Source: a virus
Length of the DNA stretch: 64,000 nucleotides
Reading direction: 5' to 3' (one strand)
Virus record (IMG/VR): IMGVR_UViG_3300032224_001676
Coordinates: 62,001 to 126,000 of that record
Both the position numbers and the translations under genes were made by a program. The notes under the pieces were generated by a model. It saw only the letters and a program-made list of their open reading frames with translations, made no database searches and was not told the DNA's origin. Of this stretch, positions 1 to 54,470 are shown in pieces. Positions within the stretch are counted from its first letter, which is position 1. Each line of letters starts with the position of its first letter.

Positions 1-427
1 TTAAAGCGTTGTCTACTAAATATCGAATTGAATCATAATCACCAGCGTCTAGTAGTTCTACTGAATTTAGTAATGCTTTTTTAAGTTGTTGGTTTTTGCA
101 GAAATTAGAAAATTCTTCCTCTACATAAGCTAAATCATCATCAGATGCTTTGTATGCTTCCTTTAGCTGTTCTTTAATTGATATTTGTAATATTTCATTA
201 TCAATTCTTTTTAATTCTATTTTTAATACCTCCATACTAGGTGTAGAGTGGTATTTGTCGTAGTATTTTAAAATTTCCTTAATAACCCATTTATGTGCTT
301 GATTATCAAAATAATCTTCACTGATTATATCATGGATATTCACTAAGAACTCTTTATGGGTCAATAAAGATGATATTACTTTAATTTGAAAATGCGTCCC
401 ATACTGGGAAAGTGTACTTAATGTCAT
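1..427 (-). CDS. Replicative DNA helicase, gp41/DnaB-like, N-terminal part (cut by window edge)
   Basis: I translated this from the ATG at 425-427; it runs off the left edge after about 142 residues. The visible part is the all-helical N-terminal domain of a DnaB-type helicase. It has an alternating pattern close to T4 gp41: an early hydrophobic helix, then ISEDYF, then a helix ending YYDKYHSTPSME, which matches gp41's YHSIPS segment. The RecA-like motor with the Walker motifs lies outside the window. In T4, gp41 unwinds the fork with primase gp61. It is the last visible gene of a unit holding UvsX, gp32 and the exonuclease, which supports the call. No Walker motif can be checked. Confidence 0.7.
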   Translation of the reverse strand, partial: MTLSTLSQYGTHFQIKVISSLLTHKEFLVNIHDIISEDYFDNQAHKWVIKEILKYYDKYHSTPSMEVLKIELKRIDNEILQISIKEQLKEAYKASDDDLAYVEEEFSNFCKNQQLKKALLNSVELLDAGDYDSIRYLVDNAL

Positions 428-435
428 AACTTTTA

Positions 436-1476
436 TTATTTAAAACTGCTTAATACTTTGAATGTCTCTTTTATCCAATAATCAATATTTTTTAAAACAT
501 TAACTAAACCATCTTCATGATATAGATTTAAAAATTCTTTAGTTTTTAAATTAAATGGTCTAGCTTCTATTAATTCTTGTATAATTTCTTTCTCCTCATC
601 ATCCATTAATGGGTGACTCAAATCCATTATTTTATAGTTATTTTTTATTGAATCACTGTTAAATATTACTCTAGAATATATAACATTGTCCTTATATTTG
701 GTTTCACTAATGTTAAATATGTCTTCTAATACTAAATCTTCTTCAGCTAATTCAGGAAATAATTTAAATAATTTTTTAGGGCCTAATCCTTGCACTCCTG
801 GTATTTTATCTGAATTATCACCCATTAATGTCTTATATAATATAAAGTTTTTAGGTGATAAGCCAAATTTATCTTTTACTGTTTTTGGAGTATAATACTC
901 TTTAACCATAGGGCTATAAACAGTTATATTGTCAGTAACTAATTGTAAAAAATCTTTATCTGCGGATACTATAACGCATTTAGATTGGTATTTTTTGGTT
1001 ATATATTGTGATAAATAAGCGATAATGTCGTCTGCCTCGACTTTATCGAGAGATATTACTTTGATGGGTAAACACCGTAGATAATGAATTAACCTAGATA
1101 TTTGGTTAGCTTTAGAATCTTGTTCATCATCTATATTATCAAACGCATCATAGTTAGTTATTTGTTTAATGTTCCTACCTGATTTATATTCGGGGAGTAA
1201 GTTCTTTCTGTTAACAGAAGAACCAACTCCGTCGAATACAATATATACAGATGTAGGTTTATTTTGGTTTATTAGAAACCCTAATGATCTTAAAAAACCT
1301 CCAAGTCCTCCAATATGAACACCTTCTTGATTAATATAATTTAATACAGCAAAATTTCTTAAAAATAAATTTAAACCATCTATAATTAATACTCTATCAT
1401 GTTTATTAAACGTAGCTTCTTTTTCAGATTCTTGGGTAACATTTTCTAATAACTTAAATAAATCTTTTTTATTCAT
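436..1476 (-). CDS. rnh: 5'-3' exonuclease / flap endonuclease (T4 RNase H-like)
   Basis: This is a FEN-1/PIN-fold nuclease that removes RNA primers and 5' flaps during lagging-strand synthesis. In the longest reading (TTG start at 1491, 351 aa) the acidic metal-site residues appear in order: D38 (IIDGLN), D87 (VFDG), E152/D154/D155 (VEADD), D178/D180 (SADKD) and D225/D228 (GDNSDKIPG). A helix-hairpin-helix element (GVQGLGPKK) follows. I prefer the ATG at 1474-1476, six codons in. It starts one base after the uvsX stop and has GAGGA just upstream, whereas the longer reading needs a TTG inside uvsX. Length (346 aa) is near T4 RNase H (305 aa). It is translationally coupled to uvsX. Confidence 0.88.
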   Translation of the reverse strand: MNKKDLFKLLENVTQESEKEATFNKHDRVLIIDGLNLFLRNFAVLNYINQEGVHIGGLGGFLRSLGFLINQNKPTSVYIVFDGVGSSVNRKNLLPEYKSGRNIKQITNYDAFDNIDDEQDSKANQISRLIHYLRCLPIKVISLDKVEADDIIAYLSQYITKKYQSKCVIVSADKDFLQLVTDNITVYSPMVKEYYTPKTVKDKFGLSPKNFILYKTLMGDNSDKIPGVQGLGPKKLFKLFPELAEEDLVLEDIFNISETKYKDNVIYSRVIFNSDSIKNNYKIMDLSHPLMDDEEKEIIQELIEARPFNLKTKEFLNLYHEDGLVNVLKNIDYWIKETFKVLSSFK

Positions 1477-1477
1477 C

Positions 1478-2560
1478 TTAATCCTCTTCAATTAGTGTTA
1501 TAGCCTCTTTGCTTTCTTCCCATTCTGAGGTGTCTTCAATAAGGTCTACTTCAACACTTCCTAAAATGTCAACCCATTCATTAGCATGTTTTTTCTTATA
1601 TTCATTAATTTCGTTTTCATTAATAAATCCATGAATAGTAGCTATAACAGTACTTTTTGTTTGTAACCCAGTAACGTGATTCTTATCACAAGCTACTTTT
1701 GTTCTAACAGCAAACTCAACCTCCTTACCGTTTTTAGTTGCTTTAATTTTGCTTGTACCACTATTAGTAATATTACCAAATGTTAATACAATTGAAGCGT
1801 CTAAAAACATAGTTTCACCGTTTTTCATTTTCATTTTTGGTTGAGACATAATTGTCTCAGCTGGTGCAACCCAAATCTTGTTAATTGCTACCATTGAATT
1901 AGTATAAGGTGATGTTTCTTTTCTTGATAATGGGAAACGTTGATTAATAAAATTACCAAACTGTTGTGACATTGCGCCTGCATTCCACATTGGGTTGTTT
2001 TTATTTGCTTCAACACTCATCTTACAAGGTATAGAACCAATTGAATCCCAGAAGAAACATAAATCATAAGGTAAATTACCTTTCTTTTGTTCATCTAATA
2101 GATCAGCTATAAACCCTGCTACATCTTCAATCGTTCCTAATGAACTTCTATCAATGTATAAGAAAAATCCTTTATAGTCTATAACTTCTCCAGTTGTTTC
2201 GTCAACTACATCTTCAACTTGAAAACCCATTTGTTTAGCGTGTTCCCAAGACCATTTCATCTCTGTAATGATAAAAACTGGCAAAATGCCCATTTTCTGG
2301 GCATTGATTGCTAGTTCTAGTAATGCAGTGGTTTTACCTGTATTACTGTGTCCTCTTAACAAAGTGATATGGCCTATAGGAGCTCCAGGCACTGAGATTG
2401 ATTCTTGTAGTGCTTTTGAAAACGGAATCCAAGTTTGTTCTTTAAACTTAACATTTGTGTTTAACAGCTTTTTCTCTTTGAATTTGTCTAAGCTAAAATT
2501 AGCTTTCATTTCAGCGGAGACAGCAGCCGTCAACGATGTTGATTTTTTAGTTTTGGCCAT
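1478..2560 (-). CDS. uvsX: UvsX-like RecA-family recombinase
   Basis: This is an ATP-dependent strand-exchange protein that loads on gp32-coated single-stranded DNA for recombination-dependent replication and repair. The 360-aa protein has a Walker A GHSNTGKT at about 70-77, a Walker B ending in D172 (LCFFWDSIGS), and an intervening TEMKWSWEHAKQMGF segment where T4 UvsX has its ATP-capping region. Length fits UvsX (about 390 aa). It lies between the single-stranded DNA-binding protein and the exonuclease, all on one strand with short gaps, so it is probably part of a replication operon read from the promoter near 3484. RadA or Sms is less likely because no zinc finger or Lon-type domain is present. 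Confidence 0.92.
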   Translation of the reverse strand: MAKTKKSTSLTAAVSAEMKANFSLDKFKEKKLLNTNVKFKEQTWIPFSKALQESISVPGAPIGHITLLRGHSNTGKTTALLELAINAQKMGILPVFIITEMKWSWEHAKQMGFQVEDVVDETTGEVIDYKGFFLYIDRSSLGTIEDVAGFIADLLDEQKKGNLPYDLCFFWDSIGSIPCKMSVEANKNNPMWNAGAMSQQFGNFINQRFPLSRKETSPYTNSMVAINKIWVAPAETIMSQPKMKMKNGETMFLDASIVLTFGNITNSGTSKIKATKNGKEVEFAVRTKVACDKNHVTGLQTKSTVIATIHGFINENEINEYKKKHANEWVDILGSVEVDLIEDTSEWEESKEAITLIEED

Positions 2561-2574
2561 AATTTATTTTTATT

Positions 2575-3462
2575 TTAGAATGGTGAACCTTCTCCTTCTT
2601 CTTCTTCGTCGTCAAATAAAGAGTCAAATTTATCAGCTTTACTCATAGGTTTAGCAGGAGTTTTAAGGCTGTAATTTGATTTTGGTTCTGGTTTTGCTTT
2701 AGCTAGAATTGGATCTTCAGTTGGTGCTTCAGTTGGTGTTTCAACTGGTACGTCTTCTTCTTCCTCCTCCTCGTCAATATCATCTTCTGCTTCTTCAGGT
2801 GCTAACCAATTTTGTAGAATTTCTTTTAGAGCATCAAAATCCATTTTACGTTGTAACTCTAAAACACTTGGTTGTTCTGTTAGACAATTTTTAACATAAT
2901 CAGCGTCATCACTTAATTTTGATGTTTTAGGTTTAACACGAATTGATGATTTTAATCCTTGACGACCACCAATGTCACCTGTTACTACATCAACTGTAAA
3001 GTCACGGCCCTCGTTAATGTCAGTGAAATCTCCATAATCCTCATCCTCTGCAATACCAAGTAATTGCATATAAATTTCTTTTCCAAATTCCCAAAGGCGA
3101 ACACCTTTCTCTTCTTCTCCTCTAACAACTACAGGAGCGAATACTCTCATTTTAGGATCTAATTTCTTAGCTAAGCTCCAATTTTCTTTGTCTTGTGTTC
3201 CACGAAGTTGTTTTGCGAATTCAACAATTGGGTCTTTTTCACCCCAGTTAGTTAAAGCATAGATTGGGAATTTTGAGAACCCGTAGTGAACGAACACTTC
3301 TTGAAATGGGTTACTTTTGTCTAAGATCGAAGGCACGATTCGGATTTGATATTTACCTTCTGATTTTGGTTTCCAAAGATGTTTGGAATAATCAACTTTT
3401 TCTTTCTTTTGCCCAGCTGATTGTAAGGCATTCAGTCTTTGTTTGATTGCTTTGATGTCCAT
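2575..3462 (-). CDS. gp32: Single-stranded DNA-binding protein, gp32-like
   Basis: The N-terminal region is basic and includes HLWKPKSEGKYQIRIVPS at about 28-45, which resembles the FWRPtrd...xIRFLP segment opening the T4 gp32 OB-fold core. The C terminus (last about 70 residues) is a long Asp/Glu stretch interrupted by Pro/Thr, ending FDSLFDDEEEEGEGSPF. This is the acidic protein-interaction tail typical of phage and bacterial single-stranded DNA-binding proteins. In gp32 that tail recruits UvsX/UvsY, polymerase and primase. I did not find the Cys/His zinc ribbon of T4 gp32, so metal binding may have been lost. Position directly upstream of uvsX supports the assignment. Confidence 0.85.
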   Translation of the reverse strand: MDIKAIKQRLNALQSAGQKKEKVDYSKHLWKPKSEGKYQIRIVPSILDKSNPFQEVFVHYGFSKFPIYALTNWGEKDPIVEFAKQLRGTQDKENWSLAKKLDPKMRVFAPVVVRGEEEKGVRLWEFGKEIYMQLLGIAEDEDYGDFTDINEGRDFTVDVVTGDIGGRQGLKSSIRVKPKTSKLSDDADYVKNCLTEQPSVLELQRKMDFDALKEILQNWLAPEEAEDDIDEEEEEEDVPVETPTEAPTEDPILAKAKPEPKSNYSLKTPAKPMSKADKFDSLFDDEEEEGEGSPF

Positions 3463-3570: not shown

Positions 3571-4035
3571 TTAAAGTTCTATTATGCTGTGTATTTTTGT
3601 GTTGAATTGTTTTATTTCATTGCTTTGTGTTAATAATATACAATTTTTATAATGGTGCCAATTTACTTTGTAAGATACATCTACAACACCACCATTTAAC
3701 TTTTTAATTAATTCGTTAAGAGCGTTTATTGTGTATAAAGTATTAGTTTCTTTTTTACGATGTACTAGAATAGTATTTAATGGAATTTCGCTGATGTTAG
3801 ATTCATCAACGTTATATGTTAAAACGTATTCATTTGTGCTTTTAATATATAGCACAAACAATTTGTTATACATAATTTTGTAAGATGTGGTTATGTTTTG
3901 TACCAACCCATCAAGATCAACATCATCCGTAAAAGTACAAAACAACTTATTTGTCATATCTAGTGAAAAATCTATGAAATTACCATTCATATCATAAATA
4001 TTAGGGGATCTTTCAAAAGTTGTAATCATTTCCAT
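3571..4035 (-). CDS. Protein of unknown function, coupled to the polymerase-like gene
   Basis: The product is 154 aa with no recognised domain. Its ATG lies inside the last codons of the upstream polymerase-like gene (23-base overlap), so the two are probably translationally coupled. A second ATG two codons later is an equally good start. A stretch at about 55-95 (LFVLYIKST... then LNTILVHRKKE) resembles the N-terminal part of the polymerase-like neighbour (LSLLYIKSL... INTILQSFDNIYVRDKK). It may therefore be a diverged relative of that domain or work with it. A role in DNA replication is inferred only from context. Confidence 0.6.
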   Translation of the reverse strand: MEMITTFERSPNIYDMNGNFIDFSLDMTNKLFCTFTDDVDLDGLVQNITTSYKIMYNKLFVLYIKSTNEYVLTYNVDESNISEIPLNTILVHRKKETNTLYTINALNELIKKLNGGVVDVSYKVNWHHYKNCILLTQSNEIKQFNTKIHSIIEL

Positions 4036-5269
4036 AACTTAATTTAACATTTAATTTTAATTTTTTGAATATAGATAATATTTCTTCCAACAACACATCT
4101 TCTTCATCTTTATCCATATCAAATAAAAACGAATCATAAGTATATAACACTATTTGACTTTTTTTACCAATTAATAACCTATGAATTTTTAACAATATAC
4201 CAACATTAGTTGATGTCTCCAAATTTTGAAGCATATAGTTAAATAATTTTTGAGGATTCATGTTAGGCAATTGATTATTAAAACAATAACCTGAGATTGG
4301 TACAGTAACTTCGCCTAAGGTATTAAATATTTCCCAGTTATTATTTATAAACTCTGTTGTCTTTTGGAAGAATTCAAGATGTTTATACTCGTCAAATACA
4401 CCTCCATATAACTGTTTAAACGTTAATTCTTTTGCTTTAGCATAATCTACCCCATACATTTCAGCAAAAGCAGCATGAATATCAGGTACATTAAAGTTGT
4501 AATTAACCAACTGTCCTGCAAGTGTTGGGTGATAAGCGGAGATATCGATTTCAATAAACTTATCATTTTTTGGTATAAAACTTTTACGCGCCCCATTTTC
4601 TTTATTTAAAGCAGCGAAATTAACCCCATTAAAACGGTTTGAAGGTCTTCGTGTTGTAGTAAGTAGGTTATATTGGGTGTATACTGTGTTATCATGTATA
4701 GAATACTGGGGGTGTTTAAGGTCATAGAACGCATTGAATTCGTTAGGATTTATTTTTATACCGTTTTTTTCAATTCCAAAAAATGCTAATATTGTTTTAT
4801 CTAAAAATTCATCTTTAGGTTGAATAGATATTTGTTTAAAATTTTCTTCATATGTTTCATAATGCTTGACTACAGGAATAATTCGGTTTATATCTTCTCT
4901 ATCACCAAATTTATTATAGTAATACGAATGGATTTTAGAACTGCTTTGTAATTCAAATTCAATATTTAATTGAATACATTTTTTTATTGGGAAATAATAT
5001 AAAAACGATTTTTTATCTCTAACATAAATATTATCAAAAGATTGTAATATGGTATTTATATGTTTTTCATTTATAGAAAATGTTTCAGTATGGTTAACAC
5101 ATAACATATATCCTTTATTATCATCTAAAGATTTAATATATAATAAAGAAAGATGATTTATAGCAGGGTGAGTGTTGTTATTATAGGGAATAAGCTCTAC
5201 AAATACATTTTTGTATTCTTTAGAGTAAAATTCCAATAACTGATCTTTATTTTCTATAAGCCAAAACAT
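4013..5269 (-). CDS. Small, divergent family A DNA polymerase-like protein
   Basis: The 418-aa protein carries the palm motifs of family A (Pol I/T7-like) polymerases in order. An RRPSNRFNGVNFAALNK stretch at about 207-223 sits where Pol I has its TGRlss.pNlQ segment. Motif A is EIDISAYHPTLAG with D242. Motif B is AKELTFKQLYGG with K280 and Y288 eight residues apart, as in the O-helix KxxxFGxxYG. Motif C is YTYDSFLFD with D379. It is much shorter than Pol I or T7 polymerase. The first about 190 residues have no clear DEDD exonuclease motifs. The Glu of motif A and the His/Glu around the motif C Asp are replaced. T4 itself uses a family B polymerase, which is not in this window. Confidence 0.72.
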   Translation of the reverse strand: MFWLIENKDQLLEFYSKEYKNVFVELIPYNNNTHPAINHLSLLYIKSLDDNKGYMLCVNHTETFSINEKHINTILQSFDNIYVRDKKSFLYYFPIKKCIQLNIEFELQSSSKIHSYYYNKFGDREDINRIIPVVKHYETYEENFKQISIQPKDEFLDKTILAFFGIEKNGIKINPNEFNAFYDLKHPQYSIHDNTVYTQYNLLTTTRRPSNRFNGVNFAALNKENGARKSFIPKNDKFIEIDISAYHPTLAGQLVNYNFNVPDIHAAFAEMYGVDYAKAKELTFKQLYGGVFDEYKHLEFFQKTTEFINNNWEIFNTLGEVTVPISGYCFNNQLPNMNPQKLFNYMLQNLETSTNVGILLKIHRLLIGKKSQIVLYTYDSFLFDMDKDEEDVLLEEILSIFKKLKLNVKLSYGNDYNF

Positions 5270-8800: not shown

Positions 8801-9013
8801 AGATCCATATGAGTATGAAGAATTAGAAAATACTTCAGCAAGTCTAGTTGCATCTACATCTATGCCAGATGTTAGCTTTAACCATGGGGTTTTAGAGTTC
8901 ATGTATTTTAATACATCTTCACTTCTATTATTTGTCCCTAATTTTTCTTGACGAATTTGAATTTGACCTTGTACATACGGGTCAAATGCTTGTCCTATTA
9001 CTCCACTAGCCAT
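5882..9013 (-). CDS. Large baseplate hub/spike protein with C-terminal M15-type peptidoglycan peptidase
   Basis: The product is 1043 aa. The first about 850 residues form a beta-rich structural region without a motif I can name. Next comes a Gly/Asn/Ser linker (about 853-870). The C-terminal domain has M15 (VanY/DacB-type D,D-carboxypeptidase or endolysin) metal ligands: HHSTGNAIDF at about 934-943, matching HxxGxAxD, and GPHFHIS near 1009-1015, supplying the second His. Such domains cleave peptide cross-links in the cell wall. In T4 the hub protein gp5 carries a lysozyme for local wall penetration. A hub with a different wall enzyme is the natural reading, supported by the LysM-like gp53 homologue immediately upstream. 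It is too large for a free endolysin, and no holin is adjacent. Confidence 0.75.
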   Translation of the reverse strand: MASGVIGQAFDPYVQGQIQIRQEKLGTNNRSEDVLKYMNSKTPWLKLTSGIDVDATRLAEVFSNSSYSYGSGANLAKEFQLFGAQFNGGKTITKGVGYNDNSSYGFLSDSDYGHVPPPGIISADIKSVNRGSLRFADIKIICHNLQQFKVIETLYLRLKYSMLLEWGHSIFFDNSGNLLENTSYSISDDFLAGSTTLNGVSVNLNENVVLTKIREQRRQSDGNYDGFYGFVKNFSWTLRQDGGYDITLNLVSAGDVIESLKINTNYPKVQAAITSGSNDPTYYTNQNKSTLNTILNYFSNQLWSGGGSGAGSVKIIDGIPPNGPANTDQISANTGFSTNFKRDTGLPFYSILEGLGAGFPNLQQGTWYGAQYYVKLGTLLKVIESYLLYYDTNKNAIPLVDKGEGYPPIIGIDWDFYHNYCFTIPNQCSTDPTVCLIPLDTVSAASTPQYRETHVTTTYKTPPLANVVNTTTFDILGLPTVLDTYINGVFGTIYGVVNGATYTTSDNTVAGERTVSTVTFTFLGGGGVPPLSSGIYYYLDQTDKDGFRSTKSAYVGFTMGILLNIDYIARVLENFIDAETGAVSLYEFLSNLMKGVQAALGNINNFEVIYDEDTNLLKIIDNTNIPELFKVSGVTPGVVTPINPNLLYSNYGSFVKDLVIKTEFSNAFATMVSIGAQANGNVVGEDSTAFSKWNTGLKDRIVPTKTNLNSKPSTAPDVETLYINNLAALRKFNKSVNDGVVSDADISAISYTTADIYSYDIGHLVNKNYIPPRGFIPLDMQITLDGISGPRLLEVYTINETLLPENYRKHLQFLVKGISHKIDINGWTTTLNSLGTPIDKNLSVKQPPKPTQLSSGGNSGGNGGGNGGTGYWATKLRTALAAAGGGSGANYDTRADITENMYKAAAKVFELIHTNFPTFKIESNSGNDTFHNAPHHSTGNAIDFSVTNPSAPRNGFTWTSADGSKTKQVQFTQADVDSIISKVLDPLTAGNNNFRYLNEYNFPSTGATGPHFHISWSSGGEGGNNQAAAKRKVTAGTLTAITI

Positions 9014-9019
9014 AACTTA

Positions 9020-9322
9020 TTAAATTTCATTTATAAAATTATACAAACGAACAACACCATTTGTATTAACAGGAATTCTTAATTGTGTTCCATCAGGTAA
9101 ATATAATGAATCTTGAGGTAATTCATCATTTGCTGCTGAAATTATCCACCATAATGTAGCATCATTATAATACTGCTGTGCTAATAAATCTAATCTATCG
9201 CCAGATGTTGTGATTACATATATATCACTTAAACTCTTAGGGACAATAGGAAATTTTACATCTCTGTAATATTTAACTCCGTTTGAGTTATTTAAGGTAG
9301 CAACATTCTGGTTACGATTCAT
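9020..9322 (-). CDS. LysM-like baseplate protein (gp53/gpX-type)
   Basis: The 100-aa protein contains a LysM-type fold: TTSGDRLDLLAQQYY at about 40-54, then a WWIISAAN helix, and a DGTQLRIP strand. This pattern (GD.ld.lA..yY.d..lWW.Ia.aN) is shared by T4 baseplate wedge gp53 and small LysM tail proteins of contractile injection systems, where it organises the hub or spike periphery rather than acting enzymatically. It sits between the large hub protein and a large baseplate protein with gaps of 6 and 12 bases. The family call is firm; the exact wedge or hub role is inferred. Confidence 0.78.
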   Translation of the reverse strand: MNRNQNVATLNNSNGVKYYRDVKFPIVPKSLSDIYVITTSGDRLDLLAQQYYNDATLWWIISAANDELPQDSLYLPDGTQLRIPVNTNGVVRLYNFINEI

Positions 9323-9334
9323 ATTATTAATTTA

Positions 9335-11578
9335 TTAGAAACTTGGGATCCCATTTATAAGCTCAGGTCCATTAGTATATATAGATTGAGGGGTAATAAT
9401 ATTAGGATCTTGGAACATTATTTCTCCAGGGTATTCATTTAAGAACGCTTCTGGGGTGTTTGGGTTTATAGGATCTAATGTAGTGTTAGGAAGTGCTACA
9501 ACATTAGATGTGTTTTGGATAGATTGGTAGGAAGTTGTTTTTGATTTTTGGTCAAAAGCATCTCCTAAAATAGTAGTTGGATTGCTTCCTCCGTTATCAG
9601 TATAATCATTTCCTACAAGATTTCCATATGCGTCTTGTAATTCTCCTGTTAATAATTTACTATTACCTGGTGTTCCAACTCCTAATACACTTACTGTAGG
9701 TGTATTTCCATCTTCGTCTGGTATAATACGTTGGGTTGTATTCTTAGCCAAATTATTATGAATTCCTCTGATTCCTATATATGATTCCCCTAGTTTAGGT
9801 ACATACTTGTGAACAGGAGTGAATGCTAAATTAATTTTAATAAGTTTAGGTAGTTGTCCTGTATAAAGAGCAGAATTTTTAAGGATGTTAGTTCCATCTA
9901 CGTTTCTATTAATATCCCACCCCGCTTCAAATACAGGTGTATATGTAAGTGTTTTAATTATGCCGGGTACCCCATTAAAATAATTTCCTAATGTCATTTT
10001 AACTAAGTTACCACGCATAAAACCAACGCTAGAATAATCAGGTGTAAGTAATGATCCTAAATAATTAAGTTTTCTAAAGTTATAAAGCATATCTGCTCTA
10101 GATAAAGCTACAACATTAAAGTTTATATTAAAATCTCTAGTATATCCTTTATATTTATAAAAATTTTCTCCTCTACCTACATATTTAAATGCTTCCCATT
10201 CACCATTGAAAGTATCTGTAAAGTCATCTATATAAGCTTTAAAATCTAATAAAACGTTACTTCCTCCATTTGATATAGAAGTAATATTAAAATCAATTAT
10301 GTCTTCTCCTAATACTCCTTTTTCAGTTTGGTCAGGAGAAATAGCTATATTAGGGTTAAGAACTCTAGCTCCATTTTTAAAATTTCCCTTATATGTTGTT
10401 ATGCTAGTATCATAGGTTAATTCTCTATTAAATACTTTATATGAAGTAGAAGGAATACCATCACCTGTAGATGTAGCATTTATTTTACCTCTAAAATCTG
10501 TGATCGCATTACTAGCTCCGTTTTTATGAGACACAGCGACCATACTTGTTGCTGAGCCTGAGGCTTGGACTTCACTTGGATTTAATAATTGGGTATAATT
10601 AAATACGTAAACATTATTTTCTCCTTTGCTTGGTTTAGGTGGTAAAAAAGTATTAGTTTTTCCAAAACTAGGTTGGTTTAAATTAGCAACAGATGTAAGA
10701 GAATTTGATGTTATGTTTAATTTTTTAGTTTCATTGAAATATAAGAGACTAACCCCAGCTAACCCAGTATTTATAGTTCCAAGATTTAAATTATTATATA
10801 CAGATGTACCTTTACTTATAATTATATTTCCATTAACTATAGCTGATTCTGTTTTAGATTTAGTATCAAAATTTCTTTGAGGTGTCCGAGCAGAATTAAC
10901 TAAGCGTATTCTGGTTTTTCCAAACGGTACCCCTAAAGTACTAGGACCGCCAGCATATGATATTAATATCCCAGGTTGATTAGAGATGTTAAATTCTACT
11001 TCAGATAATTCATTTCTATAATCAGTATTAATTTTAGAAGAATATAAACCTAATAGTCGATTTATATTTTGTTTATTAAGGTCACCAATAATATCATAAT
11101 AACCACCTTTTCCACCTATATAATATGATCTTTCAAATGGGACTAAACCTTGTTTGTTTAAATGTCCACCAAATGCTGACACTCCAGTTTGGAGTATAGT
11201 ACTAGTAGGACTATATATTCTTCTTTGGTATGTAGTTTTAGGATTTTGACGTTCTAGTAATAATTGTTTAGTAGTAAACAATAAACCATTTGGTGATTTG
11301 GTATCAAATAAAAATTTAGAAATCCTACTAACGTCTTCTGCTGTATCTGCAGCTGTAAGAATGCCACCTCTAAGTAAAAAATCAGTGCTGTTTACTGTGT
11401 AATCATTAAGCCCAGGAATGTCTTTAACAATATAAGGTTGGTCACTCGACCCTCCTCCTTTTCTGTCATTCCCGTAATCTAATTTTTTAGCAGAGAAATT
11501 ACCTAAACCCCCTAGTTGTCCTTTGGAGTTGTAATAGTAAAAGTTAGGTAGGTTAGTTACTAAATTTATTAATCCCAT
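9335..11578 (-). CDS. Large baseplate/tail structural protein, unassigned
   Basis: This 747-aa protein is Asn/Gly/Thr-rich with predicted beta character and no catalytic motif. Features include a N-terminal FYYYNSKGQLGGLGNFSAKK segment and a central DFNINFNVVALSRADMLYNF stretch, followed by YLGSLLTPDYS. It overlaps the upstream 116-aa repeat gene by one base and is followed by the LysM baseplate protein, so a baseplate component (wedge or hub) is likely. I cannot match it to a particular T4 protein. Confidence 0.55.
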   Translation of the reverse strand: MGLINLVTNLPNFYYYNSKGQLGGLGNFSAKKLDYGNDRKGGGSSDQPYIVKDIPGLNDYTVNSTDFLLRGGILTAADTAEDVSRISKFLFDTKSPNGLLFTTKQLLLERQNPKTTYQRRIYSPTSTILQTGVSAFGGHLNKQGLVPFERSYYIGGKGGYYDIIGDLNKQNINRLLGLYSSKINTDYRNELSEVEFNISNQPGILISYAGGPSTLGVPFGKTRIRLVNSARTPQRNFDTKSKTESAIVNGNIIISKGTSVYNNLNLGTINTGLAGVSLLYFNETKKLNITSNSLTSVANLNQPSFGKTNTFLPPKPSKGENNVYVFNYTQLLNPSEVQASGSATSMVAVSHKNGASNAITDFRGKINATSTGDGIPSTSYKVFNRELTYDTSITTYKGNFKNGARVLNPNIAISPDQTEKGVLGEDIIDFNITSISNGGSNVLLDFKAYIDDFTDTFNGEWEAFKYVGRGENFYKYKGYTRDFNINFNVVALSRADMLYNFRKLNYLGSLLTPDYSSVGFMRGNLVKMTLGNYFNGVPGIIKTLTYTPVFEAGWDINRNVDGTNILKNSALYTGQLPKLIKINLAFTPVHKYVPKLGESYIGIRGIHNNLAKNTTQRIIPDEDGNTPTVSVLGVGTPGNSKLLTGELQDAYGNLVGNDYTDNGGSNPTTILGDAFDQKSKTTSYQSIQNTSNVVALPNTTLDPINPNTPEAFLNEYPGEIMFQDPNIITPQSIYTNGPELINGIPSF

Positions 11579-39136: not shown

Positions 39137-40854
39137 TATACTGATCTAGCGTCTTTAGTTCCTGGTATTTCTGTTGCTCCGCTTTTCTTTAAGGCAGATA
39201 CGCTTGCATTACTAGAAGCTACTACTGGGGCTGCGTTTGGGTCTTTTGGTTTAAATAAAGATTCATCCATTTCTTTGTCTTTCTTTTCACCACCTAGTTT
39301 CTTTTTAGCTGTTTCTAATTTTTCAATTTCTTTTTTTAATTCTTTTACTTTTTTAGGGTTAACAGAATCTTCTTCAAGTTCAGTTAAAGTGGTTAATGCT
39401 TTAAGTTTTTTCTTACGCATGTTTATTTCTTTATCAATTTTAACACGCATTGCTTTATTTTTAGCATCCTCACCAGCTTCTTCAATATGTTTCATATCAA
39501 GTTCTTCTTTGATAAGATAAGAAACTATTGAACGAAATTTTTGCTCATACATGCTTGGATTAGCACCTAAATCTCTTAGGTCTGGGTTTTCGTCATCCCA
39601 TTGGTAACTTTGATTATACATGTCATCATCGTAGTTATCTAAGTCATTAGCAAACTCATCATCCATAAACATGTCTTCACGGTTATTAATTTCTTCACCG
39701 TTTTCGTAACTACATACTGTGGTGTCACTATCATACCAATCAGATATTTCGTATCCGTTATCGGTTTTATTTACATGCTGAGTGTATCCTTCTTTAGAAT
39801 TTTCTTGTGCTTCTTTTTTAGCTGCTTCTAAATCGTTCATGTTAGATTCAGTTAATCCAGCTGCGAATGGAGTTGTTATTTTATAGTCTCCGTTTCCTAC
39901 TTTAGCTATAGGTAAATTTACCTTATGCATTGGTTCTCCATTTACTACAACAGTTTTATTATCAAAATTATTTTTAATTAAATTAATAATTTCATTTGAT
40001 AATTTGTCTTGTACTTTTTTAAGCATTGGAGGTAAATTACGAACGTCTTGACGACCTCTATGTATAGCAGCAAATACCGGTGGTAATTTAGCTGAGATAT
40101 ACATTTCTATACCTGCTGGTGAATTAACCATTTTGATAAGACCTGGAAAGGCGTTAGCTGCTTCTTTAGGAAGCATATAGAATGAAGGAATAAATCGTTT
40201 TCCACCACTACCTTTTTGTGGGAGGATATGGATAATTTCTTCTAATTCATCATTCATAGACTCTTTTAGTTTAACAGGTTCCATTCCAGATGATTTATAT
40301 TTACCTTTTGCTTCTTTTGGAGTACCTAAAGCTGGTGCTTCAGTTGTGTATCCTAATCCCTTAGTTCCAAATTGACCATCTTTAACATAATGTTGGTTAT
40401 CTTTAGCTAAATTTTTAGCTACAATAGCTTTTAACTCATCAACACTTTTATCTTTGTTTTTAGGATCTTTCATTTCATCATAATATCCAATTAAAAACTC
40501 TTGTCCGTAAACATTATCAATATTTTTAGGATCTTTATAATCGAAACCACGTGTTTCCATATCGGTTACATCTTTAGTAGGTTTCTTTTCTTCAGCTTTT
40601 GCTTCTTTTTCTTCTTTAAGAGTATTTATATTTTCACTAAAAATAGAAAACCAATCTGGTGTTCTACCTTTAGTAACAACACCACCAATTCCTTCGCTGA
40701 TAACGCTTTTGCTTTTTAGAATATTGATGGCGTCATTATATGATGTATATTGGTTAACATATTCAGGAAATAAGTTACGAACAGACTTCATAAAAACGTC
40801 TTTGTTACCTTTACCTTCTTTAAGTAGGTTGTATTGTTCTTGTATTGTTTTCAT
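39136..40854 (-). CDS. Probable prohead core / internal head protein (572 aa)
   Basis: This 572-aa protein begins MKTIQEQYNLLKEGKG, somewhat like the T4 capsid-targeting peptide MKTYQEFI. It contains a conserved central part (YMLPKEAANAFPGLIKMVNS, FAAIHRGRQDVRNLP) and a Lys/Glu-rich coiled-coil C terminus. Candidate gp21 sites I/L-x-E occur at ISEG, LKES and LTES. It is encoded between gp20/gp17 and gp21, so it is most likely a head-core or packaged protein. No enzyme motif recognised; acidic Asp/Asn-rich stretch at about 385-435. Confidence 0.55.
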   Translation of the reverse strand: MKTIQEQYNLLKEGKGNKDVFMKSVRNLFPEYVNQYTSYNDAINILKSKSVISEGIGGVVTKGRTPDWFSIFSENINTLKEEKEAKAEEKKPTKDVTDMETRGFDYKDPKNIDNVYGQEFLIGYYDEMKDPKNKDKSVDELKAIVAKNLAKDNQHYVKDGQFGTKGLGYTTEAPALGTPKEAKGKYKSSGMEPVKLKESMNDELEEIIHILPQKGSGGKRFIPSFYMLPKEAANAFPGLIKMVNSPAGIEMYISAKLPPVFAAIHRGRQDVRNLPPMLKKVQDKLSNEIINLIKNNFDNKTVVVNGEPMHKVNLPIAKVGNGDYKITTPFAAGLTESNMNDLEAAKKEAQENSKEGYTQHVNKTDNGYEISDWYDSDTTVCSYENGEEINNREDMFMDDEFANDLDNYDDDMYNQSYQWDDENPDLRDLGANPSMYEQKFRSIVSYLIKEELDMKHIEEAGEDAKNKAMRVKIDKEINMRKKKLKALTTLTELEEDSVNPKKVKELKKEIEKLETAKKKLGGEKKDKEMDESLFKPKDPNAAPVVASSNASVSALKKSGATEIPGTKDARSV

Positions 40855-41363
40855 TTTTGTTTAGGTTGGAAAAGTTCAATTAAATCATCTAAATATTCTT
40901 TAGCAGTGCTAGTACTATATTTTATATCGTATGATGGGTTTTCTTTATAATAATTTATAGTGTCATATTTAGCTTTAACTAATAAGTCTTTTAAATTGTT
41001 TAGTTGGGCTTCTATTTGATCATAATCTCCAATTTTCCCAGCTATATGTTTTTTAAGTTTTTCATCTTCAATATTTAAACTATTAACATAGTCGTCTATA
41101 TTGAATTTAGCATCTGACCCTTCTTCATTTACCCACAATTTTTTAGTATCAACAGCTTTAGAATTTTTAGCTAATTTTTCTGAGTTAACTAATTTATAAC
41201 CTGCTTTAAAATATTGGTTAGCGTTTTTAGCTGTGTTTTTCTTTTTAACAATAGGTGTAGCAGTAGCAATCCCAGACCCAGGAGTGTAAGAGGCACCAGT
41301 GCCTGTGGCACTCATCTCTTTCACTACAGATCGTATTACTGCTTTTAGTTTTTCACTTAACAT
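40851..41363 (-). CDS. Probable head-core protein with amphipathic N terminus
   Basis: The 170-aa protein starts MLSEKLKAVIRSVVKEM, a version of the LKQIIKEEL helix, followed by a flexible GTGASYTPGSGIATATP linker. Helical segments fill the remainder. Its start lies 2 bases from the end of the upstream 284-aa gene, and it overlaps the 572-aa gene by 4 bases. The small T/G-rich segment after the N-terminal helix resembles prohead-processing junctions. No domain named. Confidence 0.5.
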   Translation of the reverse strand: MLSEKLKAVIRSVVKEMSATGTGASYTPGSGIATATPIVKKKNTAKNANQYFKAGYKLVNSEKLAKNSKAVDTKKLWVNEEGSDAKFNIDDYVNSLNIEDEKLKKHIAGKIGDYDQIEAQLNNLKDLLVKAKYDTINYYKENPSYDIKYSTSTAKEYLDDLIELFQPKQK

Positions 41364-41364
41364 A

Positions 41365-42219
41365 TTAATTAACTTTTTTTAATTCTTCCAATAATTCATA
41401 ATATTGGAGTAAATTAACCATATGATCATTAGTTACATTAGATGTTTTATCTAATTCTTTTAAAAGTGAAAAAACTTCGTCTAATTTTATTTTAGTTACT
41501 TTATCTGATACTGTAATTTTCAACATAGATAATTCGTTTTTTATCTCGTTTATCTTTTGGTTGTAAAATATTTTTAATTTTGGGGTTGAATCAGTTGAGT
41601 TAATAAACTCTTTTAAAACTAATTTTTGATTAGAATTTAAACTATCATATTTAGTATTAAATTTCTCTAAAAGAATTTTATATGTTAAAATACGTATGTC
41701 TTTATCGTGTGAATTAAATTCTTCTATCACTTCGCTTTCTACATTCTTTTTATCTAAATTAGAAGATGTTAAATACTCTAAAAGAGTTATTTTATTATCT
41801 ATAATTTGGTTCAAATTAGGTGAACTATTTTGGGTATAGTTTTCTAATAAAATATATATAGAAGCTTGAGCTTTATAATTAGGCAATTTTGTTTTAAAAA
41901 ATTCATCTATATTATAATACTGTTTTATTTCTTTAATTAAATTATACTTTTGTCTTTTTAGTATAGATTGATTAAGGTGTTTAGCAGATTCTAAAACAGT
42001 ATTTGTTATCATATCTGCTTTACCTTCACTTAAATTAGTATTTTTTAGTAAAGTCTCATATAACTTGTATTCTCTCCCTAATTCTGTTTTAACAAAATGT
42101 TTTTTGAGGATACCAGTAGCCTTTGAGTCTTTATTTGACAAAGTATCTGATGTAATTTGTCTAACGAGTAACTCAAAAAGAATACCCGTATTTTTATATT
42201 TGGAATGTTTAATTTCCAT
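41365..42219 (-). CDS. Helical protein of unknown function between portal and core genes
   Basis: The 284-aa protein is Lys/Asn/Leu-rich and almost all helix. It begins HSKYKNTGILFELLVRQITS (residues 4-23) and ends NLLQYYELLEELKKVN. Its position directly downstream of the portal gene suggests a head-assembly factor. I found no nuclease or ATPase motif and no membrane segment. It has its own late-type element. Confidence 0.5.
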   Translation of the reverse strand: MEIKHSKYKNTGILFELLVRQITSDTLSNKDSKATGILKKHFVKTELGREYKLYETLLKNTNLSEGKADMITNTVLESAKHLNQSILKRQKYNLIKEIKQYYNIDEFFKTKLPNYKAQASIYILLENYTQNSSPNLNQIIDNKITLLEYLTSSNLDKKNVESEVIEEFNSHDKDIRILTYKILLEKFNTKYDSLNSNQKLVLKEFINSTDSTPKLKIFYNQKINEIKNELSMLKITVSDKVTKIKLDEVFSLLKELDKTSNVTNDHMVNLLQYYELLEELKKVN

Positions 42220-42232
42220 TAAGAATTTTTAT

Positions 42233-42240
42233 TATAAATA
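42233..42240 (-). promoter_or_regulatory. Late-type ATATTTATAA element before the 284-aa gene
   Basis: The coding strand reads CATATTTATAATAAAAATTCTTA, then ATG. It is one of the clearest matches to the shared consensus. Confidence 0.5.
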
Positions 42241-42251
42241 TGACGAGACCC

Positions 42252-44168
42252 TTATTCCTTTATATTAGATTCATCTAATAACGATTTCTCTTCAGGTTGA
42301 TGTGTAAATACTATTTTCTTTTCTAAACTTTCAAACAATTGTTTATTTTTTAGAAATGAAACTTGAGCATTTTCTAATGCTAAAGGTGAATTACCTTTAA
42401 AATTATACCCTACATTTTTATCTTCGCCTGTGTCGTCTCCTTTTTTCATACCTACATTTCCTAATCTATCTGTACCTAAAGCATTATCTTGAGTACCTAT
42501 ATCAGATGCTCTTTCTTTAGGGCGACCTAGTGTTAAATCTTCGCCATACCCAGCTGGTACTCCTCCGTCCATACCTGCATATCTGCCTTTACCGTATAAA
42601 TAAGCTAAATCATGAGGTGTACCATATGATTTACCTGATTCTACTGGGTCATTACCTTCGTTTTCTATTTGTTTTAATCTAAATGTGCGTTTTTGGTCTT
42701 GTGTAATCAAGTCTCTGTATTCATCATATTGATCTTCACTTAAGTGGAATATATTATCGTAAATCCAATCAGTAGGTAATAATTTAGTTTCCATCATTTG
42801 GCGAGCTAAATCTACTTTTTCTTTCATTAATGCTATTCTTTCTTGATCGTATATGATAGAAGGAGTAGTTAATGTTAGATCAAAATTAGTTAAGTTTTCG
42901 CTTTTATACCCTTGAGTATATAAGTGAACTAAAGCTATTTTATATAGTTCTGATAGTATAATACGTTGAATACGATCAATTGTACGAGCAAAACGAATAT
43001 CCTCGGCTGCTAATGTTGCTTTACCAGTTAAGTCTTTTTCGTAACCCATAAATGCTTTAGGTACTTTTAAAGCAGCAAATAATTTATCTCTTAAATAAAC
43101 TACGTCTGTAATACCATCGTATTCCATACCTTTTGTAGGTTCAATACGAGTTGTTTGGTCATTACCTCTAATAGGAATATAAAAATCTTCTAACATATTT
43201 TGCATGTTATATTTTAAGTTATATTCACCAGTTTGAGGATCCATAAGAGGTGTTCTTTTCATAGAAGAAATAGTCTTCTGCATAAAGTTTTCAACTTCAT
43301 TTGGAGGAATAGAACCAACATTCACATAAAAAATACGTTTTTCTGGGGCGCGGGCAATTCTATGAATAAGCATAGCATCTTCCATTAAAACATATTGTTT
43401 AAATAATTTACGAGCAGGCTCTAAATATGATCTACCATATGGGAGATAGTTAACATCAGTCATTAAGCGAAAATGAGCCATTTCATAATTATCAAAGTAG
43501 ATAGAATTATCATCTTTGTTATTATTATATGAACCATAAGCGTTTGGAGTACCATAATACCCACTTCCTCCCGCGTATCCATCTGGGCTATATTTAAATC
43601 TTACCGCTGCTGGTGCTGCTTTATCATATCCTTCTTCTCTCATGATATGGTAGGCGGTGTATGGTATAACATTATACACACCAAATTTTTCAGTGATTTC
43701 AAGTTTTAAGAAAAAATCACCATATTTGCACATTTGGCGAACCCAAGACCATAAATTAAATTCAATATTTAATACATCATAAAATAAGTTGTATAATATT
43801 TTTTGAATATCTTCATCACTACTTCTAATTTGAAGTACTTCACCTAAGTCATTTTTTAATGTACTTTCATCTGCTATAATATCTAAAGCTGAAGCAATAA
43901 TAGCATCGGTATCCATAGAGTCATAATCAGAATATAATTGAGGGCGAAGATACTGGTAGTTAAGGTTTAATTGAGCTCCGTAAAGTGATGTACTATTAGT
44001 TGAATATATACGATTAAATCTATCCATTAAAGAATTATTTGCGTATTCTCCACTAGTTTGGATAGAGTTAACATCCATTACTTTTAACTCGTTTCCTCCG
44101 GCGTTACGAATTATTACATCAGTTGAGAATAATCGTCTTAGTCGGGTAAAAATGTTAGTATCTGCCAT
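42252..44168 (-). CDS. gp20: Portal vertex protein, gp20-like
   Basis: The 638-aa protein has the gp20 hallmark blocks. They are YDSMDTDAIIASALDIIADE near the start, KYGDFFLKLEITEKFG, HRIARAPEKRIFYVNVGSIP, YLRDKLFAALKVPKAFMGYE, and FARTIDRIQRIILSELYKIA. T4 gp20 is 524 aa; the extra length is in Gly/Asn-rich loops (about 195-215) and the C-terminal tail (about 540-638). The portal forms the DNA entry vertex and nucleates head assembly. It lies just downstream of the terminase gene. Confidence 0.95.
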   Translation of the reverse strand: MADTNIFTRLRRLFSTDVIIRNAGGNELKVMDVNSIQTSGEYANNSLMDRFNRIYSTNSTSLYGAQLNLNYQYLRPQLYSDYDSMDTDAIIASALDIIADESTLKNDLGEVLQIRSSDEDIQKILYNLFYDVLNIEFNLWSWVRQMCKYGDFFLKLEITEKFGVYNVIPYTAYHIMREEGYDKAAPAAVRFKYSPDGYAGGSGYYGTPNAYGSYNNNKDDNSIYFDNYEMAHFRLMTDVNYLPYGRSYLEPARKLFKQYVLMEDAMLIHRIARAPEKRIFYVNVGSIPPNEVENFMQKTISSMKRTPLMDPQTGEYNLKYNMQNMLEDFYIPIRGNDQTTRIEPTKGMEYDGITDVVYLRDKLFAALKVPKAFMGYEKDLTGKATLAAEDIRFARTIDRIQRIILSELYKIALVHLYTQGYKSENLTNFDLTLTTPSIIYDQERIALMKEKVDLARQMMETKLLPTDWIYDNIFHLSEDQYDEYRDLITQDQKRTFRLKQIENEGNDPVESGKSYGTPHDLAYLYGKGRYAGMDGGVPAGYGEDLTLGRPKERASDIGTQDNALGTDRLGNVGMKKGDDTGEDKNVGYNFKGNSPLALENAQVSFLKNKQLFESLEKKIVFTHQPEEKSLLDESNIKE

Positions 44169-47774: not shown

Positions 47775-48014
47775 TTATATATTTTCCAAATATTCTAAAA
47801 AGTCTTTAAATACTTGTTTATGTTCTGTTGTTGAGTTATTAATAACTTCTGTTAGTAAGATTTTAGGATCTGTATTAGATTCTGTTAGTAGTGTTTTGAA
47901 ATTACCTAAAACATATTCTGCTAGTATTATATCTTCAATTTCATCTCCATAATCATTTAGATCATTGAGATAAAGTTTAATGCATTCGTTTATGTTATTT
48001 TTTAAAGATTTCAT
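47775..48014 (-). CDS. Small helical protein of unknown function
   Basis: This 79-aa protein is helical and acidic (INECIKLYLNDLNDYGDEIE; FKDFLEYLENI). Its start lies inside the last codons of the DUF6884-like gene (20-base overlap), so the two are co-translated. No domain recognised. Confidence 0.5.
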   Translation of the reverse strand: MKSLKNNINECIKLYLNDLNDYGDEIEDIILAEYVLGNFKTLLTESNTDPKILLTEVINNSTTEHKQVFKDFLEYLENI

Positions 48015-48477
48015 TTAAAATATTTTTAATTTTTAATACTACTTCTTTTACATTTTGGATTTGAGAATTTAACCAACTTAAACGTTGACCAAAACGTTTA
48101 CCTTCCATCGGTTTAGATACATGATCAGAAGGAATATATTTTAATAATGGTTTAAGATATTCGTTACCTGTTAAAAATATAAAATTATCATTTTTAAGAT
48201 CAATCCCAGATGATTTCATCTGTTTTGCTACTTCTTCACCCCAAGCTTCTTTTTCATCTGCTGGCATTTCTTTCAATGTTTTATCATATGGTGCTAACTT
48301 TTTATTTAGGGGTACTAAATGATGTTTAGCAGATAATATATACATTTTGTCTGGTTTGAGAGACTTACCGTATTCTAATGTTTTTTTAAACATTGGGGAG
48401 GCTGAGTATAGTTCTTGTGCTGGAGCAGCGTGGTCTAATTTGGATTTAGAACAACTTAAAAGTACTATATTAGCCAT
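47995..48477 (-). CDS. DUF6884-like protein
   Basis: The 160-aa protein begins IVLLSCSKSKLDHAAPAQEL, then YSASPMFKKTLEYG and MYILSAKHHLVPLNKKLAPY. This is the signature of the DUF6884 family (the lisCskxK...A..lY.S.lf..a...a....ilSAkhGlv pattern), distantly related to YaaA/DUF328 proteins. The biochemical function is not established to my knowledge. The gene carries a late-type element upstream. Confidence 0.65.
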   Translation of the reverse strand: MANIVLLSCSKSKLDHAAPAQELYSASPMFKKTLEYGKSLKPDKMYILSAKHHLVPLNKKLAPYDKTLKEMPADEKEAWGEEVAKQMKSSGIDLKNDNFIFLTGNEYLKPLLKYIPSDHVSKPMEGKRFGQRLSWLNSQIQNVKEVVLKIKNILNEIFKK

Positions 48478-49608: not shown

Positions 49609-50802
49609 TTATTTCATTAAAAATGTAACTAAAGTTTTATTTAACATTAATGACTTAAATGATGATGTATCACCATTATAGATTGATTTAACTACTTTAT
49701 ATTTTAAATCAGTTGCTAATAGTTCTTCATTCATTAAAAACGCTAAACGATCAATATATGACTTTTCAATTTTATTATTTTTAGAATAAAATAAGCTAAA
49801 GTTAATTAAACGTGTTGATATAATTGAAGCTAAATCTGCTCTATATTTATCATCTTTACCAATAATACCTTTTAAAGTATTTAAAACATATTCATTACTT
49901 TCGTGAGTCATAATTGTTTCTGGTGAGATGATCTTATCTAGTTTATTGTTAATAAACATTGTAAACATAGTTGTGAACTCAGACCCAACACTACCCTCAC
50001 CAATCATTTGAATCAATCCTAATTCATTATCAAATGAATTTAACGACGAAATTGAATTAAAAAATGTTGTGATACTTCTTGAGTTGGTATTAGTTGATAC
50101 TAATTCTGGGTGTTTTAGTAAGAAATTAATACATCTATTATCTACTGTAGCGTTTTCAGCCCACTCACTCCAACAGTTAATATCAAATTTTAAATTAACT
50201 GAGATAAATCGTGTTTTTTGTGCGCTATCGATACTATTAACCAAATAGTCTCCATTATCAGGATTACTTGTTAAAATAATATGCCAATCTTTAGGCAATG
50301 TCCAACTAATATACTGCTGTCTATCAATTAATTCCATAACAGCTTGAATAAATCTTACATCAGCGCGATTCCAATCATCTAATAATAGAATACCGCCATT
50401 TGTTTTACCACTAATCCATTCAGGTGGGCAATAACTCATACGATTTAAACCTGTAAATTTGTATCCTTGTTTGGTGTATTCTTCTACAGCGTGTTCATCA
50501 ATCCATAAACAATCATTGTCAGTTTTGCATACTTCAAACTGGCGAATTGGAAAACCTACTAAGTCACCTAACTCTTCAATTTGAGCTAAATTTAACTTAA
50601 CAAAATTTAAATCTGTTTCTTTTGCTAATTGTAAAATTGTTGATGTTTTACCAATACCAGAGTCACCAACTACCTCAACTGCTACAGGTGGCTTACCATT
50701 TTCTTGTAGGAAGCGATTGTTGTTAATAATGTGTTTTAGGAATTGTTTTGCCTCTTTAATGTTTAGAGACACTTCAGCGTGTTTTGTTTTTTGTTTTGCC
50801 AT
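49609..50802 (-). CDS. MoxR-type AAA+ ATPase
   Basis: The 397-aa protein has Walker A GDSGIGKT (46-53), Walker B ILLLDDWNRAD, and an ILTSNPDNGDY sensor. These are MoxR/dynein-related AAA+ motifs. It is encoded directly after a VWA protein with a HELLH motif; MoxR-VWA partners act as chaperone-like machines in bacteria (e.g. RavA-ViaA). In this phage the target is unknown. A TATCTTTA box lies before it, so it may also be expressed from its own start. The C-terminal part is helical, ending LNKTLVTFLMK. Confidence 0.82.
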   Translation of the reverse strand: MAKQKTKHAEVSLNIKEAKQFLKHIINNNRFLQENGKPPVAVEVVGDSGIGKTSTILQLAKETDLNFVKLNLAQIEELGDLVGFPIRQFEVCKTDNDCLWIDEHAVEEYTKQGYKFTGLNRMSYCPPEWISGKTNGGILLLDDWNRADVRFIQAVMELIDRQQYISWTLPKDWHIILTSNPDNGDYLVNSIDSAQKTRFISVNLKFDINCWSEWAENATVDNRCINFLLKHPELVSTNTNSRSITTFFNSISSLNSFDNELGLIQMIGEGSVGSEFTTMFTMFINNKLDKIISPETIMTHESNEYVLNTLKGIIGKDDKYRADLASIISTRLINFSLFYSKNNKIEKSYIDRLAFLMNEELLATDLKYKVVKSIYNGDTSSFKSLMLNKTLVTFLMK

Positions 50803-50815
50803 AACCTTTTTTTTA

Positions 50816-50823
50816 TAAAGATA
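50816..50823 (-). promoter_or_regulatory. Host-type TATCTTTA box before AAA+ gene
   Basis: The coding strand reads GTTATCTTTATAAAAAAAAGG, about 13 nt before the ATG at 50802. It resembles the boxes at 46971 and 47738. Confidence 0.45.
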
Positions 50824-50834
50824 ACATTGTTTTT

Positions 50835-52028: not shown

Positions 52029-52051
52029 AACCTTTTTTTTGTAAAAATAAT

Positions 52052-52071
52052 AAAAAATGGCCCGAAGGCCA
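52052..52071 (-). terminator. GGCC-UUCG-GGCC terminator, copy 2
   Basis: Coding-strand TGGCC-TTCG-GGCCA followed by TTTTTTA, just after the heptosyltransferase-like gene. Near identical to the copies at 46979 and 54425. Confidence 0.9.
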
Positions 52072-52075
52072 AATT

Positions 52076-54408: not shown

Positions 54409-54424
54409 ATGCTATAAAAATAAT

Positions 54425-54444
54425 AAAGAATGGCCCGAAGGCCA
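54425..54444 (-). terminator. GGCC-UUCG-GGCC terminator, copy 3
   Basis: Coding-strand TTTGGCC-TTCG-GGCCATTCTTTATT after the 926-aa gene. The stem is unchanged; the T tract is interrupted by one C. Confidence 0.85.
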
Positions 54445-54470
54445 AACTTTATTTTAAAATTTCAAATATA

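Follow-up and report, generated by a model that had tools for sequence, protein, structure and literature searches.

A predicted thumbless family A DNA polymerase and its conserved partner gene in the replication operon of a T4-like phage

We analysed a stretch of 64,000 nucleotides (hereafter the window), corresponding to positions 62001-126000 of the 127,786-base IMG/VR virus record IMGVR_UViG_3300032224_001676, and found in it a gene for a 418-aa protein that is almost certainly a divergent family A (Pol I type) polymerase. The protein looks like a naturally minimal member of this family, in which the thumb that holds the duplex is gone and the active site is strongly constrained, and it is probably active as a DNA polymerase. 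Aquatic T4-like viruses of a large group carry it as an additional polymerase, and at every locus that could be checked its gene lies with the same replication genes and a conserved partner. For this gene we computed the fold, the active-site residues, the selection, the gene linkage and the co-occurrence with another polymerase.

Identification of the polymerase gene

The first-pass annotation had reported a 418-aa ORF and had read it as a compact, divergent family A polymerase. The ORF exists, on the minus strand, and the reading is borne out by the predicted fold and by the retention of the main catalytic positions. The gene and its relevant segments are the following:

4013-5269, minus strand: 418-aa protein, predicted to be a thumbless, exonuclease-dead family A polymerase-like protein (ORF and translation, AlphaFold, fold search, profile matches)
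4820-5269, minus strand: residues 1-150, degenerate 3'-5' exonuclease fold (strand and helix order of the model, alignment to Bst Pol I, acids not conserved)
4637-4759, minus strand: residues 171-211, short link in place of the thumb, ending in a conserved T-x-R-P-S-N in which R208 corresponds to Pol I R668 (interval lengths compared with five PolA proteins)
4520-4552, minus strand: residues 240-250, motif A, in which D242 corresponds to Pol I D705 and H247 to Pol I E710 (no change in any of 14 divergent members)
4400-4444, minus strand: residues 276-290, motif B or O helix, with K280, F284 and Y288 (model, profile comparison, conservation)
4118-4144, minus strand: residues 376-384, motif C (YTYDSFLFD), whose D379 corresponds to Pol I D882 (profile comparison, conservation)

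Taken alone, the 418-aa protein had no convincing match to any Pfam, PHROG or NCBIfam model, and a single-sequence search of solved structures returned only spurious matches. The family profile searched against solved structures reached the Klenow fragment at E 0.0023, and PF00476 matched 8 of the 26 family members (best E 5.1e-10); it also matched gp001 of Flavobacterium phage immuto, with a score above the curated cut-off. Profile-profile comparison of the family with five PolA proteins (those of E. coli, T7, a T5-type phage and Thermus phage P23-45, and immuto gp199) gave a probability of 97%. Structure prediction, which had been proposed as a check of the reading, gave a confident Pol I fold: the AlphaFold2 model, made with the 26-sequence alignment, had a pLDDT of 88.4 and a pTM of 0.85. 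With this model, Foldseek returned as top matches the apicoplast PolA and Klenow (E 1e-16 to 1e-17, down to 1.6e-17), all the leading matches being family A proteins, and in VIA-align about 390 of the 418 model residues superposed on residues 300-874 of the Bst Pol I large fragment (Z 25, rmsd 3.4-4.2), at a sequence identity to Klenow and Bst Pol I of 12-15%.

The gene is under purifying selection. Precisely, dN/dS was 0.118 against a 92%-identical relative, 0.163 against a 70%-identical one and 0.115-0.168 for other pairs; these values (0.12-0.17), together with residues that are invariant throughout the family, rule out a chance ORF or a decayed gene.

A search of IMG/VR with the single sequence found 51 relatives, and with the 26-sequence alignment at least 593 related stretches. 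Only six of the 50,697 phage records matched, namely four of Flavobacterium phage immuto and one each of Microcystis phage Mel-JY01 and an uncultured 484-kb phage. The few matches in bacterial genomes were MAG contigs, with the same phage gene order where the flanks reached far enough. In the Mel-JY01 record, the label 'DNA polymerase I' is carried by WWT39339 (PP395634.1 55792-56832), yet by its position and 40% identity this is the 5'-3' exonuclease; the true PolA-like protein is WWT39333, labelled hypothetical. The existence of the gene is not new, since GenBank already labels homologues as family A polymerases (immuto). A literature search, with most subscription journals outside its scope, returned no description of the thumbless architecture, of the linked partner or of the coexistence with gp43.

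Active-site motifs

Residue conservation was judged on 14 divergent members, which range down to about 28-30% identity with the window protein. R208, D242, K280, Y288, Q348 and D379 (equivalent to Pol I R668, D705, K758, Y766, Q849 and D882) were invariant in all of them, and F284 was nearly so. D242, K280, Y288 and D379 lie where the first-pass annotation had put them, the Lys and Tyr of motif B being eight residues apart. It had also remarked on unusual substitutions, and these are real: motif A (DISAYHPT in the window protein) has no Glu, with the steric-gate Glu of Pol I E710 replaced by His (H247) in all 14 members, and the Asp of motif C is flanked by Tyr and Ser (Y378-D379-S380, in YTYDSF). 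Across the family motif C reads Y-D-S/A, hence Pol I H881 is replaced by Tyr and E883 by Ser or Ala, and in the window protein R754 is also replaced, by Tyr. Because the equivalents of E710, H881 and E883 are changed, in addition to R754 in the window protein, the polymerase activity could be weak. In Pol I, a Glu of the E710 type sterically blocks rNTPs (PMC9324360); the bulky His found here may do the gating instead.

Thumb and fingers

We measured the thumb interval from the conserved Gly of the ERNG-like motif to the Arg of the TGR-like motif. In the family it spans 20-40 residues, versus 124 (E. coli), 133, 143, 198 and 214 in the five PolA references. The thumb of Tt72 polymerase comprises residues 230-336 and 366-375 (PMC9324360), therefore the measured interval is essentially the thumb. 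The thumb subdomain of canonical Pol I, whose absence the first-pass annotation had not mentioned, is missing from the 418-aa protein and, judging from these interval lengths, appears to be almost wholly deleted in the family. The family A thumb binds the DNA duplex (review PMC9224347), and without it the enzyme should be distributive. The fingers are shortened as well, with 37-45 residues from motif A to the O-helix Lys versus 47-72 in the references, and the distance from the O-helix Tyr to motif C is 88-92 residues versus 116-144.

N-terminal domain

The protein had been described as lacking an identifiable exonuclease domain. For sequence searches this holds; structurally it does not, as a degenerate fold is present. 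In fact, the alignment starts at model residue 1, on Bst residue 300, and omits few residues, so residues 1-150 can only fall on the exonuclease domain; the order of elements in these residues of the model (three strands, helix, strand, helix) agrees with it. Mapped by this order, the exonuclease acids fall at about E25, I27, D85 and E141. The active 3'-5' exonuclease acids, which are not universal in Pol I, are not conserved under this mapping: an Ile (I27) is invariant at the position mapped to E357, and E25 and D85 vary, which makes proofreading by the 418-aa protein unlikely. The invariant residues of the domain in the 14 members are I27, H34, H60, K87, P132 and E138. Since it retains invariant His, Lys and Glu residues of its own, the domain is probably reused rather than decaying.

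The replication operon and the 154-aa partner

The polymerase gene had been noted as lying next to gp32 and uvsX. This is confirmed, with one further ORF in between, an invariant partner gene that the first-pass annotation had not mentioned. The neighbouring genes are the following:

3571-4035, minus strand: conserved 154-aa partner ORF, overlapping the polymerase gene by 23 bases (directly downstream of it in all the testable loci)
2575-3462, minus strand: gp32-like single-strand DNA-binding protein (Pfam gp32 E 1.4e-10; PHROG)
1478-2560, minus strand: UvsX-like recombinase (PHROG UvsX E 2.5e-18)
436-1491, minus strand: FEN-type 5'-3' exonuclease, a stand-alone gene of the Pol I 5'-nuclease family (Pfam 5_3_exonuc_N E 5.6e-34)
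1-427, minus strand: 5' part of a DnaB-type helicase gene that continues outside the window (ORF 61057-62427 of the record; similar to immuto gp007, annotated as replicative DNA helicase)

The 5'-3' exonuclease, which canonical Pol I carries in the same chain, is in this case a separate gene of the same operon. We considered as testable those loci with enough sequence. The 154-aa ORF was present in 119/119 of them, gp32 in 100/100, UvsX in 73/75, the FEN-type exonuclease in 68/68 and DnaB in 44/44, and the linked genes were all on the same strand as the polymerase gene. As all these loci come from one broad phage group, their counts cannot be treated as independent. In the 53 loci that were complete, distances between the polymerases correlated with those of the exonuclease (r 0.82), DnaB (0.74), the 154-aa protein (0.71), gp32 (0.68) and UvsX (0.52).

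The six phage records that contain the polymerase are also the only ones with the 154-aa protein, which has a mean column identity of 64% over 28 sequences. It matched no Pfam or PHROG family. Its model had a pLDDT of 84, and the fold search with it gave weak and mixed matches (the SV40 T-antigen origin-binding domain, PII proteins and others, best Z 6.3); we did not take any of these matches as homology.

Other polymerases and primase candidates

A genome-wide look for gp43 had been recommended, and it found a family B gp43 in the same record, outside the window, coded in two ORFs at 40379-43676. The first piece (585 aa) holds the exonuclease domain and motifs A and B, and the second (296 aa) a DTDS motif C. 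The split hence falls between motifs B and C, and an ORF in the gap (41259-41897) looks like a GIY-YIG homing endonuclease. A divided gene 43 has been described in Aeromonas phages 25 and 44RR (PMC2988022). One relative (G003) has gp43 split at a similar place, into overlapping ORFs of 568 and 319 aa with no endonuclease; in three other relatives and in Mel-JY01 it is intact, with open frames of 855-880 aa.

PolB was found in 8 of the 11 searched records, and either PolB or a full-size PolA in 9. The additional record is immuto, in which PolB was not detected and a full-size 777-aa PolA (gp199) has an exonuclease domain. The two remaining records may be fragments; one of them, of 140 kb, ends within dnaB, and gp43 in the window's record lies about 18 kb past dnaB. 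Since PolB is present in most relatives and a full-size PolA in immuto, the small family A enzyme appears to be an accessory second polymerase, retained even where the main polymerase differs. The first-pass annotation had set against its own reading the combination of a complete gp43 elsewhere in the genome and missing catalytic residues here: gp43 is present, the catalytic residues are not missing, and only half of this combination therefore applies.

Toprim-domain primase candidates of 313-333 aa were found in five relatives, and none in the window's own, probably incomplete record. An ORF of this record (8980-9588) was considered as an AEP primase and received no support from Pfam. The record is probably incomplete, because, going by the 92%-identical relative, a Toprim primase candidate would be expected just past its end.

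The phage and its record

The T4-like assignment of the phage made in the first-pass annotation agrees with the markers in the window: Gp23 capsid protein, T4 portal Gp20, T4 prohead protease, T4-type terminase and a contractile tail sheath. Across the window there were no tRNA genes and no Rfam matches, and a scan for promoters and terminators stayed at chance level. Other genes of the window, all on the minus strand, code for an AAA ATPase adjoining a DUF2201 metallopeptidase/VWA protein, a MoxR-VWA-like pair in a phage (49609-52028), a DUF6884 protein (47995-48477, E 1e-41) and a FAD/NAD-dependent oxidoreductase-like protein (53119-54408). Outside the window, ORFs identified by eye from their translations include a pair at 1146-2919 of the record, in which a thymidylate synthase-like ORF is overlapped upstream by an HNH-endonuclease-like ORF (2182-2919), and a group resembling FolE, QueE, QueD, QueC and DpdA (50686-55410), which suggests 7-deazaguanine DNA modification, as annotated in phage immuto.

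Proposed role

From the results above we infer the activity, processivity, partnership and biological role of the protein. With gp32 and a 5'-3' exonuclease of the Pol I type as neighbours, its most straightforward job would be to fill short gaps and replace primers. The protein, with a Pol I palm, trimmed fingers, hardly any thumb and a degenerate exonuclease domain whose catalytic acids are not conserved, would be a second polymerase next to the replicative gp43-type enzyme. It would act as a weakly processive, non-proofreading gap filler, paired with the FEN-type 5'-3' exonuclease and gp32, that replaces RNA primers and fills the short gaps arising in lagging-strand synthesis and UvsX recombination, and the 154-aa partner may provide DNA grip or docking instead of the thumb. 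Together with the operon's exonuclease it would amount to a Pol I split over two genes. We put this reading forward tentatively. In its favour, the divergence of the polymerase follows, among the neighbours, that of the 5'-3' exonuclease most closely; against it, the linkage to UvsX and gp32 fits a recombination role equally well, and in T4 primer replacement is not known to require a Pol I-type enzyme. A recombination or translesion polymerase, extending the D-loops made by UvsX or copying damaged templates, could tolerate low processivity and the lack of proofreading, and both the presence of UvsX and gp32 in the operon and the unconserved exonuclease acids suit it. We regard this role as possible but doubtful: the divergence tracks the exonuclease (r 0.82) far better than UvsX (r 0.52), UvsX was not found in 2 of the 75 testable loci while the exonuclease was missing in none of 68, and in T4 it is gp43 that extends D-loops.

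The invariant His at the E710 position, where the Glu of Pol I blocks rNTPs (PMC9324360), and the absent thumb would also suit an enzyme that accepts rNTPs and makes or lengthens primers for gp43. This is unlikely, given the Toprim primase candidates in five relatives (the window's own record, probably incomplete, has none), which weaken in particular the idea of a sole primase of the phage, and given that the bulky His may take over as the gate. A more elaborate and distinctly unlikely version would be a polymerase of two obligate subunits, with the small protein standing in for the thumb and the complex able to use ribonucleotides or lengthen RNA primers; it would resemble Pol alpha as a lagging-strand enzyme but have a family A core. 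The changes at the E710, H881, E883 and R754 positions and the missing thumb could also mean a catalytically dead scaffold or regulator that has kept the polymerase fold and binds primer-template ends; yet the two metal-binding Asp residues, the Lys and Tyr of the O helix and the counterpart of R668 do not vary even among very distant members, and Ser in place of E883 also occurs in the active Tt72 polymerase (PMC9324360), so we consider this very unlikely. The first-pass annotation had left open a specialised repair or a replicative polymerase, and of the two a specialised role is likely. A replicative stand-in for gp43 is barely credible: the gene does sit in the replication operon, but the record also has PolB and candidates for a clamp and a clamp loader, 9/11 searched records have either PolB or a full-size PolA, and the idea is largely refuted by the PolB (split here) of the own record and of most relatives.

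Activity, rNTP selectivity and dependence on the partner are accessible with small proteins, and isolates for genetics exist, namely phage immuto on Flavobacterium sp. LMO8 and Microcystis phage Mel-JY01.

Comparison with known systems

With Klenow and Bst Pol I the protein shares the overall fold, including the exonuclease domain (degenerate here), the motif A Asp, the Lys and Tyr of the O helix, the motif C Asp, the T-x-R motif and the equivalents of N845 and Q849. It differs from them in size (418 residues versus about 580-605), in the nearly absent thumb, in the exonuclease acids, which are not conserved, and in the replacement of E710 by His, H881 by Tyr and E883 by Ser or Ala.

As for T4, whose replication system includes gp43, gp32, UvsX and RNase H, the phage of the window combines a gp43-type polymerase, gp32, UvsX and a FEN-type 5'-3' exonuclease; unlike T4, which is not known to have a Pol I-type polymerase, it carries one in an operon with the 154-aa partner.

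The direct homologue in phage immuto, gp001 (YP_010114413.1, annotated as DNA polymerase family A), is 38% identical over 99% of the query and lies in a locus with the same gene order as the window. The two phages differ in their other polymerase, which is the full-size PolA gp199 (777 aa) in immuto, with no detected PolB, and gp43 in the phage of the window.

The polymerase of Thermus phage Tt72 is likewise a family A phage enzyme with Ser for E883 beside the motif C Asp, and it is active (PMC9324360). It differs in having 703 residues, a full thumb and strong proofreading, and in keeping the E710 equivalent, E389 (PMC9324360), a residue with an accessory role in that enzyme (PMC9324360).
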